The notes below the pieces were generated by a model. That model saw nothing but the letters and a program-made list of their open reading frames with translations, was not told the origin of the DNA and did not search any database. Shown in pieces: positions 16,885 to 21,397 of a stretch of DNA of 64,000 bases. A program made the translations under genes and the position numbers. Within the stretch, counting starts at the first letter, position 1; every line of letters begins with the position of its first letter. Source of the DNA: Prochlorococcus marinus XMU1419 (lineage in GTDB: Bacteria; Cyanobacteriota; Cyanobacteriia; PCC-6307; Cyanobiaceae); assembly GCF_017695955.1 (NCBI RefSeq), contig NZ_JAAORO010000001.1, positions 186,001-250,000 on the forward strand, written 5' to 3'.

Positions 16885-17198
16885 TTAATTTGATTATTTA
16901 TGGATTTATTAAAGAGATCTATTTGCTTATTGATACATTCAATTTCATTTAAAGATATTTTTATATTGGAATCTTGATAAGTATTGTTGGTCTCATTTTC
17001 TTGAATATTTTCGGCTTTCTCCATTCTTGAGGCTTCTTCGATTATGGATTCTTTCAAACTATCAAATTCTTTTTTGAGAATTTCAGGAGCATCCTGAGCA
17101 ATAGTTGTTGCTTCTTCTATTTTTTCAAACACTATCTCATTTAATTTTTCGGTTACTTTCTTAATAGCAGCTTTTAAAAGGTAATCAGAGTTGGTCAT
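16881..17198 (-). CDS. Small helical protein of unknown function, translationally coupled to the ABC1 kinase
   Basis: A 105-aa charged protein beginning MTNSDYLLKAAIKKVTEKL, mostly predicted alpha-helix (EKIEEATTIAQDAPEILKKE), with no membrane segment or catalytic motif. It overlaps the kinase start by 4 nt (ATGA), so the two are probably coexpressed. An in-frame ATG at 17267 would add 23 residues; I prefer the internal ATG because the extension is hydrophobic and unlike the rest, but neither start has a clear ribosome site. Function unknown. Confidence 0.75.
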   Translation of the reverse strand: MTNSDYLLKAAIKKVTEKLNEIVFEKIEEATTIAQDAPEILKKEFDSLKESIIEEASRMEKAENIQENETNNTYQDSNIKISLNEIECINKQIDLFNKSINNQIK

Positions 17199-17453
17199 AA
17201 AAAAATATAATGTTTCTACGGCAATTGATTTTTCGATATGACCTAATAATAGATCAAGACAGAACATTTCACGTAACTGATCATTTTGATAATTAATTTT
17301 ATAAAGTTTTCCTATGTAAGTTTGTTTCTATATTATGCTTTTTTCTTTTTTTTCTTTTAACTTATATCTATACATGAGGTTAGGTATTTACATTAAAGAT
17401 ATCTTCTAACCAAAAACTCATCTAATTAATTATTAAAAAGGAGTTTTATTAAA

Positions 17454-18410
17454 TTGGAAATTATTGAGTCAGATGTAGTTATTATCGGAGGAGGCCCGGC
17501 CGGCTGTACTTGCGCACTTTATACATCTCGTTCAAACCTAAAGACAGTAATTTTAGATAAGAATCCATCTGTTGGCGCTCTAGCAATAACTCATCAAATA
17601 GCTAATTATCCAGGAGTTCCAGTTGATATAAGTGGAGAGAAATTACTTACTTTAATGAGAGAACAGGCTGTTCAATACGGAACAGACTATAGGAGAGCAC
17701 AAGTGTTTGGAATAGACGCTAGTGGAGAATGGAAAATGGTATATACCCCCGAAGGCACTTTCAAAGCTAAAGCACTTGTCCTTGCAAGTGGAGCTATGGG
17801 TAGGCCTGCATCATTTAAGGGCGAAGCAGATTTTCTTGGTAAAGGAGTAAGTTATTGTGCTACTTGTGATGGTGCTTTTTATAAAAATAGAGAAGTTGCC
17901 GTTGTTGGAGTGAACAAGGAAGCAATTGAAGAGGCAACTGTTCTAACTAAATTTGCGTCAACTGTGCATTGGATCACATCAAGTGATCCTAAATCAGATA
18001 ATGAAGAAGCTATGGAATTGATGGATAATTCAAATATAAAACATTGGAGTAGAACAAGATTATTAGAAATATTGGGTGATGATATGGGTGTTAATGGGGT
18101 TGTTGTAAAAAATAAGCAAGAAGAAAACCCTATTAATTTAAATTTAGATGGAGTCTTTGTCTATATGAGTGGTTCAAAGCCGATTACTGATTTTTTAGGG
18201 GATCAAATTGCTTTAAAAGAAGACGGAGGAGTTATTGTGGATGACTTTATGTCTACAAACTCTGATGGAGTATGGGCTATTGGTGATATAAGAAATACAC
18301 CATTTAAGCAAGCCGTTGTTGCGGCTTCTGATGGATGTATTGCTGCAATGTCAATTGATAGATATTTAAACAGTAGAAAAAATATAAGAGTAGATTGGAT
18401 TCATTCTTAA
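17454..18410 (+). CDS. trxB: Thioredoxin-reductase-like flavoprotein lacking the NADPH motif
   Basis: A 318-aa low-molecular-weight TrxR fold: N-terminal FAD loop GGGPAGCTCALYTSR (12-26), redox site CATC (135-138) and C-terminal FAD motif AIGDIRNTPFKQAVVAASDG (about 275-294). The central NADPH module is abnormal. The usual GGGDSAxEEA reads GVNKEAIEEA (152-161), and the usual HRRxxxRA reads ITSSDPK (174-180). Known relatives that lost NADPH binding are the ferredoxin-dependent FFTR and the diflavin-linked disulfide oxidoreductase (DDOR), the latter as I recall reported from Gloeobacter and marine picocyanobacteria. The TTG start follows a good AAGGAG site 8 nt upstream. Electron donor unknown. 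Confidence 0.9.
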   Translation: MEIIESDVVIIGGGPAGCTCALYTSRSNLKTVILDKNPSVGALAITHQIANYPGVPVDISGEKLLTLMREQAVQYGTDYRRAQVFGIDASGEWKMVYTPEGTFKAKALVLASGAMGRPASFKGEADFLGKGVSYCATCDGAFYKNREVAVVGVNKEAIEEATVLTKFASTVHWITSSDPKSDNEEAMELMDNSNIKHWSRTRLLEILGDDMGVNGVVVKNKQEENPINLNLDGVFVYMSGSKPITDFLGDQIALKEDGGVIVDDFMSTNSDGVWAIGDIRNTPFKQAVVAASDGCIAAMSIDRYLNSRKNIRVDWIHS

Positions 18411-18431
18411 AAATAAATTTTCTTCTTTAAT

Positions 18432-18713
18432 TTAAAGGGGTGTTGCCTCAGAAATATAAGCAACTCCTCCGTAGTAGCTTAAATCGTCTCTGATATTATC
18501 TCTCATTTTATCTATTAATTCTTGTTCGCAAAAAACAATTACATGAGCATTTGAACCTAATCCTGTGAATTCCATATCTTCAGTAACAACTCTTTCAGGC
18601 CCTCTGCCTGTGGCGTGTTTCATAACTGTATATCCAGGAACATTAGCTTTTTCTAATGTTTTAATGATTGCATCTAGTTCTCTTTCACTAAATATCAAGT
18701 CTAATCTTTTCAT
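18432..18713 (-). CDS. sbtB: PII-like carbon-sensing regulator SbtB
   Basis: A 93-aa PII-superfamily protein placed 2 nt after sbtA. It has the ferredoxin-like beta-alpha-beta pattern (KRLDLIFSERELDAII) and a T-loop region containing ATGRGPERVVTEDMEF (about 34-49). SbtB binds cAMP/adenine nucleotides and regulates the SbtA bicarbonate transporter. It ends at ISEATPL and has no C-terminal CGPxGC-type redox loop, which longer SbtB proteins such as the Synechocystis one carry. It differs clearly from the canonical nitrogen PII GlnB, which is longer (about 112 aa). Confidence 0.88.
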   Translation of the reverse strand: MKRLDLIFSERELDAIIKTLEKANVPGYTVMKHATGRGPERVVTEDMEFTGLGSNAHVIVFCEQELIDKMRDNIRDDLSYYGGVAYISEATPL

Positions 18714-18715
18714 TT

Positions 18716-19714
18716 CTATAGAGGGGAAAATGGGATAATGGTATTTACTAAACTCATATATATGGGAATGCCAAGAACTATATTGAATGGGAAAGTTAAA
18801 CCTAGTGTAGTTGAAATATAATAACTAGATTTAGCTTCTGGTACCGTCATCCTCATTGCTGCAGGAACTGCTAAATAAGAGGCGCTAGCACATAAAACCA
18901 CAAATAAAAGTGCGTTGCCAGGTCCTAATGATAAAAATCTTGCAACGAAAACACCAATAAATGCGTTAAATAAAGGCATAAAAATGGCAAAGCCAATCAA
19001 GAACGAACCCGCATTCTTCAATCTAGGTAATCTTTGAGCAGCGACTATTCCCATATCTAACAAGAAGAAGCATTCTGCTCCATAGAATAATTGTCCAGTA
19101 AAAGGCTCCATTTTTGCAATCCCTGAGGGATTACTGGAAGCAGTAAGAAATCCTACAATTAAGCTTGAGAGCAATAAATAAACTGATCCATTCAAAAGTG
19201 ATTCGTGTAATATTGCGCTTAGATGCATTTTTCTTGATTTTGGCCTATTTTTGGGAGCTGCAAATTTCACAAGTAATAATCCAACAATTATTGCAGGAGA
19301 CTCCATTAAAGCTAAGGCTCCAACCATAAACCCATCAAAAGCTATTTTTTGACTTTCCAAAAAACTTTCTGCGGAAATAAATGTAACAGCACTAATTGAA
19401 CCGTAAGCTGCTGCTATTGCTGCTGAATTAAAGACATCAAACTTAAATCTTAAAATTAAAAATCCAATTAGCGGGATAACTAGCGACATTAGTATTGCAG
19501 CACTTAGAGTAGGCAATACTTGATCATTAAACCCACTGTTCTGAATCTCTATACCTCCTTTAAACCCAATAGCTAATAAAAGATATAGAGAGAAGAGTTT
19601 AGGTAATGGAGCTGGTATTTCTAAATCAGATTTAAAGATTACTGATATTGCTCCAATCAAAAAGAAAAGAACTGGAGGGGCTAATACATTTTGCAGAATT
19701 GGATTTATTTCCAT
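18716..19714 (-). CDS. sbtA: Sodium-dependent bicarbonate transporter SbtA
   Basis: Integral membrane protein of 332 aa with about ten hydrophobic segments, in the SbtA family (plasma-membrane Na+/HCO3- symporter of the CO2-concentrating mechanism). Family-like features are the N-terminal LAPPVLFFLIGAISVIFKSDLEIPAPLPKLFS (given as two parts, residues 11-28 and 29-42) and the C-terminal CASASYLAVPAAMRMTVPEA (about 277-296). It is shorter than Synechocystis SbtA (about 370 aa), mainly in the central cytoplasmic loop. The gene lies between a SulP transporter (6-nt gap) and sbtB (2-nt gap), so all three are probably one transcript. Confidence 0.9.
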   Translation of the reverse strand: MEINPILQNVLAPPVLFFLIGAISVIFKSDLEIPAPLPKLFSLYLLLAIGFKGGIEIQNSGFNDQVLPTLSAAILMSLVIPLIGFLILRFKFDVFNSAAIAAAYGSISAVTFISAESFLESQKIAFDGFMVGALALMESPAIIVGLLLVKFAAPKNRPKSRKMHLSAILHESLLNGSVYLLLSSLIVGFLTASSNPSGIAKMEPFTGQLFYGAECFFLLDMGIVAAQRLPRLKNAGSFLIGFAIFMPLFNAFIGVFVARFLSLGPGNALLFVVLCASASYLAVPAAMRMTVPEAKSSYYISTTLGLTFPFNIVLGIPIYMSLVNTIIPFSPL

Positions 19715-19720
19715 AAATTA

Positions 19721-21397
19721 TTAGGCTATTTCATTTAGAGCAGTTTCTAAAGCTTCTTTTCTTGTCTCAATGATGCCTTCAACTCCAAACTTAGCTAATC
19801 TATCCTTTACTTTTTCATTTGCCCCAGCAACAAATGCTTTTCTGGAATTATTTTTTGCTTCCTGCATCATGTCCTCTATTGCCAGAGTAGCCGTCACTCC
19901 AAGTCGTGGAACATCAGTGATATCAAGTATTAAAACCTTGTAGTTTCTTACCAGCATCATTCTCTCAGATATACCTTTGGCTGCTCCAAAACTAAGTGGT
20001 CCTTTAAGTCTAAATAACATTACTTCTCCTGAGCATCTATCTAGTAGTGCTTTTTCATCAGCAGGTAATGCATTTTTGGCTTGATCATCATTTGATAAAG
20101 GATTATCCTCGTCCATACCTTCTAGTTGAGTTTCGGTTATTGAATCGATAGTGAGCATATTTGCTATGAAAACACCTACTAAAACTGCCCAAATTAAATC
20201 CCAAAAAACAGTCATTAGGAGTACTCCATACATTACAACTGAAGTTTTTAAAGATAATTTGTGAGCCCTCCTCAAGAATCCCCAATCAATAATATCTAAA
20301 CCAACTTTTATAAGAATTCCTGCAAGCAATGCAGTTGGTATTTGCTCAGCTAGGGGTCCTGCGCCAACTAAAACTATCAACAACACAACCGAGTGAACCA
20401 TACCAGAAATGGGAGTTGATCCTCCAGATTTAACATTTATAACTGTTCTCATGGTTGCTCCTGCTCCAGGTAAACCTGAAAATAGACCTGCAACAGCATT
20501 TCCTATTCCTTGACCAATAAGTTCTCTATCAGAATTATGTTTTGTTTGAGAGATATTGTCTGCTACTAGAGATGTCAGTAAAGAGTCAATTGCGCCAAGT
20601 ACTGCTAGGACTAATCCTGCTTTGAAAATAATTGGGAAATATTGATTGAAACTTGGGAAATTTAAAGATGGGACTCCCCTTGGAATTTCTCCAATTCTAT
20701 CAATAGCTCCATCTCCAAAAATTAATATTGATATTGGGGTAACTATCAATAGGGCCAAGAGAGGAGAAGGAACCCACTGACTTATTTTTCTAGGAGTAAG
20801 AAATACTATACCTAATGTCATTATTGCTACTCCAATAGCAGCACCATTTGGCTGGAAATTTGAAAATACAGTACTTAAAGATTCGACTACTCCACCTCGA
20901 GTGCTAATTCCAAGTAATGGTCCAATCTGAAGCGCAATGATTATTACTCCTATGCCAGACATGAATCCGGAAACAACAGAATATGGAACTAAAGTAATGT
21001 ATTTACCTAGTTTTAGAATCCCGAATAATATTTGCAGTAAGCCGCCAATGACTACTGCTGCCATAACTAAAGGTAAAATTTGTCCTGCAGAAAGATCTCT
21101 TGGAACCCCTACTGCTGCTAAGCCTGCCACCACCCCTGCAACAGTTACACTCATGGGGCCTGTAGGTCCACTAACTTGAGCAGGTGTTCCGCCGAATAAT
21201 GCTGCTAAAAAACCAACTACTACTGCTCCGTATAGTCCATAAATTGCTCCGCCAGGCCCTAACGCAGCATTTCCAAAAGCAAGAGCGAGAGGTAAAGCCA
21301 CTACTGCGGCTGTGATGCCTCCAAGAATATCGCCTCTTACATTTTTCAGATGAAATCCATTAATTATTTTCAAAGATGCTCTCCTTAAAATAAACAC
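19721..21397 (-). CDS. SulP-family anion transporter with STAS domain (BicA-like)
   Basis: A 558-aa SulP transporter with about 10-14 membrane segments. The N-terminal RGDILGGITAAVVALPLALA (20-39) and the GGTPAQVSGPTGPMSV motif (about 69-84) match the SulP substrate region and resemble cyanobacterial BicA. The C-terminal 120 residues form a STAS domain (VLILDITDVPRLGVTATLA). SulP proteins carry sulfate, bicarbonate or other anions. Placement in the same transcript as sbtA and sbtB favours Na+-dependent bicarbonate uptake, but sulfate cannot be excluded from sequence. Confidence 0.88.
   Translation of the reverse strand: MFILRRASLKIINGFHLKNVRGDILGGITAAVVALPLALAFGNAALGPGGAIYGLYGAVVVGFLAALFGGTPAQVSGPTGPMSVTVAGVVAGLAAVGVPRDLSAGQILPLVMAAVVIGGLLQILFGILKLGKYITLVPYSVVSGFMSGIGVIIIALQIGPLLGISTRGGVVESLSTVFSNFQPNGAAIGVAIMTLGIVFLTPRKISQWVPSPLLALLIVTPISILIFGDGAIDRIGEIPRGVPSLNFPSFNQYFPIIFKAGLVLAVLGAIDSLLTSLVADNISQTKHNSDRELIGQGIGNAVAGLFSGLPGAGATMRTVINVKSGGSTPISGMVHSVVLLIVLVGAGPLAEQIPTALLAGILIKVGLDIIDWGFLRRAHKLSLKTSVVMYGVLLMTVFWDLIWAVLVGVFIANMLTIDSITETQLEGMDEDNPLSNDDQAKNALPADEKALLDRCSGEVMLFRLKGPLSFGAAKGISERMMLVRNYKVLILDITDVPRLGVTATLAIEDMMQEAKNNSRKAFVAGANEKVKDRLAKFGVEGIIETRKEALETALNEIA

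Follow-up and report, generated by a model that had tools for sequence, protein, structure and literature searches.

A Prochlorococcus thioredoxin reductase of the FFTR kind, very probably fed by ferredoxin, and a possible link with flavodoxin

The gene analyzed here lies in a 64,000-nucleotide stretch of the Prochlorococcus marinus XMU1419 genome (the window) and very probably, at a probability of about 0.93, codes for the Prochlorococcus FFTR, a known kind of enzyme that is fed by ferredoxin rather than by NADPH and that reduces thioredoxin. Both the enzyme and its presence in this host were known before, and the gene is ordinary for Prochlorococcus. In the passages that we cite, FFTR is named as the thioredoxin reductase of Prochlorococcus (PMC9025218, PMC8469568, PMC12796991), FFTR is reported as present and the iron-sulfur ferredoxin-thioredoxin reductase (FTR) as absent in Prochlorococcus and Gloeobacter, FFTR is reported from some Synechococcus, and both an SS120 FFTR (in the legend of Figure 3) and an SS120 NTRC are listed (PMC9025218). 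What is newly added here are counts of the mutual exclusion of FTR and FFTR and a link between FFTR and flavodoxin, and the interest is in the testable flavodoxin lead and not in the protein itself.

The features of the gene are given in Table 1. Among 60 full-length orthologues of the window's FFTR type, the window's own included, the start codon is TTG in 57, GTG in three, and ATG in none, and GGAG, GAGG, or AGGA is present within 24 nt upstream in 54/60. As a control, 47 ortholog groups from the window's region were compared, and 38 of them had a conserved start; FFTR is the only one of these 38 with TTG alone. This control is limited to genes near the locus, with the start column chosen by a simple rule. 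The TTG start was nevertheless rejected as a unique trait: it is conserved, yet five of the 37 other conserved-start groups are likewise without any ATG. ARAGORN predicts a tRNA-Thr inside the FFTR gene (17830-17924), which was recovered only in L009, the same gene. It was absent from L010, L012, L013, L015, and L018, five further loci of this type that were searched, and no tRNA-Thr was found at the corresponding place in L064, L054, and L056; it is taken as spurious since it is missing from these other relatives. An Rfam search of 17000-19000 gave zero matches.

Table 1. Features of the FFTR gene, in positions of the window
Feature	Position	Strand	Remark
FFTR open reading frame, 318-aa TrxB-like flavoprotein	17454-18410	+	TTG start
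AAGGAG, Shine-Dalgarno-like site	17438-17443	+	10 nt ahead of the TTG start
TTG start codon	17454-17456	+	Sole start at the right place
First FAD motif GGGPAG, residues 12-17	17487-17504	+	In 60/60 window-type orthologues
Redox disulfide CATC, Cys135 and Cys138	17856-17867	+	In 60/60 window-type orthologues; ungapped alignment to 5J60
GVNKEAIEEA, residues 152-161	17907-17936	+	Replaces the NADPH motif GGGDSAxEEA
HWITSSDPK, residues 172-180	17967-17993	+	Position where HRR is usual in NTRs
MSGSKPITD, residues 238-246	18165-18191	+	Turn one residue longer than in most NTR rows
Second FAD motif GDIRNTPFKQA, residues 277-287	18282-18314	+	Invariant across seven cyanobacterial FFTRs aligned
C-terminal tail SRKNIRVDWIHS with Trp315	18372-18407	+	Equivalent of Gloeobacter W315

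The original prediction held that the FAD loops and the CATC site are intact and that the NADPH module is rewritten, and both statements were confirmed by the motifs in Table 1. The loss of the NADPH motifs is shared by all relatives compared, namely 69 full-length Cyanobiaceae FFTRs that consist of 60 of the window's type, its own included, and nine of a second type; a contig-end fragment from genome G036 was counted as present in the survey described below and left out of the motif and start-codon counts. Residues 152-157 are GxNxEA in 69/69 of these proteins, GxGxxA/G and HRR occur in 0/69, and CATC is kept in 69/69. The 16 NTR and NTRC rows used for comparison have GxGxxA/G in all 16, CATC in 12, and the exact HRR in 10. 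Trp is found at 315 in 60/60 window-type and 9/9 second-type FFTRs versus 0/16 NTR/NTRC rows, and in the Gloeobacter enzyme W315 is reported to stack on the partner subunit's FAD (passages of PMC12796991). In the alignment the longer turn at MSGSKPITD is not an absolute mark of FFTRs because the gap at this turn is found in 12/16, and not in all, NTR/NTRC rows (0/69 FFTRs). The thioredoxin-binding motifs have been given, in PMC9025218, as GR/KG and FF; the window protein has GKG at 129-131, and at 142-143 it has FY in place of FF, which is also the case in the Gloeobacter FFTR sequence.

The protein was then placed among its relatives by score and by tree. A phmmer search of all PDB sequences put the Gloeobacter violaceus thioredoxin reductase (5J60/6XTF) first, with 468 bits over residues 1-317, ungapped, and the identity to this FFTR is 66%. 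The best NTR scored 194 bits, the clostridial FFTRs at most 119, and two DDOR sequences 74 and 66. All of the nearest named relatives, with 95-100% identity, carry the label Prochlorococcus. A tree of 56 proteins was rooted on DDOR, with clostridial FFTR sequences left out; in it the cyanobacterial FFTRs including the Gloeobacter enzyme form one clade (20 rows, 100/100), while NTR and NTRC form a separate clade (19 rows, 97/96). The window type and the second type share one clade (18 rows, 99/99) with an unresolved internal order. The NCBIfam model for thioredoxin-disulfide reductase gave 307 bits, which is under its cut-off of 343. Four relatives were found on viral contigs, and all have an NTR-type NADPH motif. 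Judged by the phmmer scores, 'FFTR' may not be one natural family since the window protein is nearer to NTRs (194 bits) than to clostridial FFTRs (119).

These results bear on two other identities of the protein. If it were a classical NADPH thioredoxin reductase whose NADPH site has diverged yet still works, its identity of about 30-38% to NTR structures and the common fold would be expected, but the score, the separate clade, and the absence of GGGDSAxEEA and HRR, with the NADPH motifs gone in 69/69 proteins, led us to reject it, and passages of PMC12796991 report that FFTRs are incapable of NADPH use. This identity is very improbable. That the protein is a DDOR, in which a second flavin replaces NADPH, is more improbable still: DDOR shares the superfamily and has no NADPH motif either, but it was rejected on score (74 and 66 bits against 468 to FFTR), on motifs, and on the tree, where the DDOR rows, one of which was verified with 629 bits to 5JRI, stand on a very long branch. 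DDOR is also reported missing from Prochlorococcus in the cited part of PMC9025218. It had been proposed from the letters that the protein is DDOR- or FFTR-like and takes its electrons from something other than NADPH. Of this the FFTR half stands, the DDOR half falls, and the suggested comparison with DDOR and FFTR sequences, now done, puts the protein with FFTR and outside classical NTR and DDOR; with the motifs gone and the family being FFTR, the electron donor is very probably other than NADPH.

A check of an AlphaFold model had also been suggested. The AlphaFold2 monomer holds no flavin (pLDDT 88.8, tail of low confidence) and is in a closed, NTR-like arrangement and not open as in 5J60, an outcome that may be biased by the input alignment, in which 4/22 rows are NTR-type. 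Against the L. lactis NTR, its TM-score (by query) is 0.85 for 5mjk, which bears the label FO, and 0.63 for 5mh4, which bears the label FR; its rmsd to 6XTF is 14.6 over 314 columns. In Foldseek 6XTF is the best match by E-value, with the two domains rotated relative to 6XTF, and the model overlays closed NTR structures. That closed NTRs rank over 5J60/6XTF in the VIA-align table is expected because the domains are rotated. For the Gloeobacter enzyme, AlphaFold 3 is reported to have produced the open form and no other (passages of PMC12796991).

We searched the window's genome (99.99% complete) for the other parts of the thioredoxin system. The catalytic and variable subunits of FTR gave no match in it, and the same searches recovered both in Synechococcus elongatus. 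The genome codes for TrxA (107 aa, WCGPC), for PetF, a plant-type ferredoxin of 99 aa, with four further frames that have a Fer2 domain, and for a flavodoxin of 174 aa on a contig different from that of FFTR. PetF matches the ferredoxin chain of 6XTF with an E-value of 6e-43, and many other ferredoxins score higher. NTRC is also encoded (458 aa, with a C-terminal thioredoxin domain), in contrast to the statement in a passage of PMC12796991 that Prochlorococcus is without NTRs and in agreement with the SS120 NTRC of PMC9025218. FFTR may share the task of thioredoxin reduction in this genome, because NTRC, which is NADPH-type and has its own thioredoxin domain, is encoded as well.

The donor and the thioredoxin partner had been called open questions. 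That is outdated for the donor and partner as such: for the 66%-identical Gloeobacter enzyme, ferredoxin, which has been crystallized in complex with it (6XTF), is the established donor and Trx-m the established partner, and a stacking Trp315, no use of NADPH, and one-electron steps are described (passages of PMC8469568 and PMC12796991). By orthology, ferredoxin is very probably the electron donor of the Prochlorococcus FFTR, and we infer that the whole Gloeobacter-type mechanism holds in Prochlorococcus; the donor, the role of the tail, and the order of steps are taken from the papers on the Gloeobacter orthologue. Photosystem I would reduce a [2Fe-2S] ferredoxin. The FAD of an FFTR subunit, which lies beside Trp315 of the other subunit, would then receive one electron from each of two reduced ferredoxins. 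A rotation of the domains would let the reduced FAD reduce the Cys135-Cys138 disulfide, and the resulting dithiol would reduce TrxA at WCGPC. NADPH would be unused because its site is gone, and FFTR would replace FTR.

The distribution of the two reductases was examined in 151 Cyanobiaceae genomes, an even sample of the taxonomic family to which the window's genome belongs. Of these, 61/151 have the window's FFTR type and 77/151 the FTR catalytic subunit, and the two co-occur in 0/61. The second FFTR type, which is 62-67% identical, is present in 9/151 genomes, eight with FTR and one without (G025, 95% complete); it is called the Synechococcus type here because L089 and L090, its two loci from named organisms, are Synechococcus. 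FTR alone was found in 69/151 and neither reductase in 12/151, one of the latter being at least 90% complete. In G049, a 94% complete genome of the same family, both the FTR catalytic subunit and FFTR were unfound. The exclusion of FTR and FFTR matches the published split between Prochlorococcus and Synechococcus and therefore may reflect one or a few evolutionary events.

The loci of the Synechococcus type brought in flavodoxin. Its gene is the convergent neighbour of FFTR, 43-86 bp away, in 11/11 of these loci (the nine of the survey, L054-L062, plus L089 and L090), and in 10/11 a hydrolase-like gene ends no more than 8 bp from the FFTR start or runs into it. Some of the loci end at contig ends, and Pfam was run on example loci; the lower neighbour counts are minima. 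Upstream there is a [2Fe-2S] ferredoxin gene of one family in at least 7/11 loci, with a different Fer2 gene in an eighth, L054. A solute-binding-protein gene, which we take to be iron-related (iron-transport-like), is present in at least 5/11 and a ferritin gene in at least 4/11. In L060 there is, in addition, a 353-aa protein of the PSII family, presumably IsiA. The outer flanks belong to several sets or are unique. Across the survey, flavodoxin (matches with E up to 1e-20) was found in 9/9 genomes with the Synechococcus type, 49/61 with the window type, 12/69 with FTR only, and 4/12 with neither, and in 27/29 of the window-type genomes that are at least 90% complete. In the three genera in which the Synechococcus type is variable, flavodoxin is present in 8/8 genomes with it versus 0/8 without it, two of the latter being less than 90% complete. 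The counts are not independent, since they come from related genomes and from neighbouring genes.

This arrangement suggests that flavodoxin may be an alternative donor to FFTR under iron limitation. It would then be a physiological donor besides ferredoxin, and every soluble carrier between photosystem I and thioredoxin would be free of iron. This supplements and does not displace the reading as a ferredoxin-fed FFTR; we hold this as possible, at somewhat less than an even chance. In its favour are the adjacency in 11/11 loci, with ferredoxin, iron-transport-like, and ferritin genes often near and differing outer flanks, the co-variation in the three genera, and the contrast between near-complete window-type and FTR-only genomes. 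Published passages report a cluster of flavodoxin and thioredoxin reductase genes in Synechococcus from waters low in iron (PMC10119275) and a rise of both trxB and isiB transcripts under iron chelation (PMC9723758). PMC2441476 gives ftrC and ftrV as Synechococcus-specific relative to Prochlorococcus, speculates on a less iron-dependent form, and finds isiB together with a specific ferredoxin in four strains of Synechococcus. On the other hand, adjacency is no assay, and the cassette could be merely co-inherited or co-regulated iron-stress genes. Moreover, no flavodoxin was matched in 12/61 window-type genomes of any completeness, among them the near-complete G026 and G054, the FFTR and flavodoxin genes are on different contigs in the window's genome, and flavodoxin occurs without FFTR in six genomes of genus g9 that have FTR only. 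None of the passages of these three papers names FFTR or presents flavodoxin as its donor, in PMC12796991 'flavodoxin' occurs only in a reference title, and a search of open-licence papers gave no passage in which flavodoxin feeds FFTR. We tentatively propose that marine picocyanobacterial FFTRs could be reduced by flavodoxin as well as ferredoxin, that the Synechococcus cassette of ferredoxin, hydrolase-like gene, FFTR, and flavodoxin could be a portable switch, and that Prochlorococcus could have fixed FFTR and dropped FTR.

If true, light-driven reduction of thioredoxin would proceed under iron limitation with no soluble iron protein involved. Carbon-fixation enzymes are expected to be turned on and off with light by thioredoxin, and Prochlorococcus ranks with the most abundant of photosynthetic organisms. 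A thioredoxin reductase without an iron-sulfur cluster, perhaps fed by flavodoxin, would connect iron in the ocean with redox control of carbon fixation.

In the window, the FFTR gene is convergent with a set of sbtB-sbtA-bicA-like bicarbonate transport genes (18432-21397), the first of which we take to be sbtB, and the set recurs in 7/11 window-type 8.9-kb loci examined. The SbtB-like protein of the window (93 aa) has no C-terminal CGPxGC loop.

Beyond the cyanobacteria, a lost NADPH motif together with an aromatic residue (W or Y) near the C-terminus was found in FFTR-like proteins, four of Chloroflexota (L097, L100, L103, and L105), one of Omnitrophota (L098), and seven of Bacillota (L093-L096, L099, L101, and L102). 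Those placed in the tree (four, one, and five, respectively) group with the cyanobacterial FFTRs (99/95), as does the tail-less Clostridia protein L104, and the best PDB match of the Schinkia and Thermoflexales members is 5J60 (268 and 298 bits). The Bacillota proteins have an N-terminal glutaredoxin-like CxxC stretch in 7/7 by eye, confirmed by Pfam in the one tested, and they end in QYS. The gene upstream in L095, L096, and L102 is presumably Dps-like. A literature search around the glutaredoxin-FFTR fusion returned no paper on it by title or the start of the abstract, and none was found that combines flavin thioredoxin reductase, ferredoxin, and Chloroflexi. The Chloroflexota and Omnitrophota proteins fall outside the groups, cyanobacteria and clostridia, named in the cited parts of the papers.

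Among known systems, the window protein is most like the Gloeobacter violaceus FFTR (formerly DTR; 5J60, and 6XTF with ferredoxin), with which it has in common a full-length ungapped alignment, CATC at 135-138 with identical numbering of both cysteines, the lost NADPH motifs, and the Trp315 tail. It differs in the TTG start and in the position of its gene beside the sbtB-sbtA-bicA-like genes. The window's genome also encodes NTRC and flavodoxin, a comparison in which Gloeobacter is represented by its FFTR protein alone. The Synechococcus-type FFTR has all motifs in common with the window type and differs by its ATG start (9/9), its co-existence with FTR in 8/9, and the convergent flavodoxin. 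The clostridial FFTR (6GNA-6GND) is likewise a ferredoxin-using flavin thioredoxin reductase, but it scores at most 119 bits to the window protein and is without the C-terminal tail (passages of PMC8469568). DDOR (5JRI/5K0A and 5N0J/5ODE) is of the same superfamily and has the CxxC and no NADPH motif, but is distant in score and tree. NTR and NTRC share the fold and the FAD and CxxC parts with the window protein, but they keep the NADPH motifs and form their own clade.
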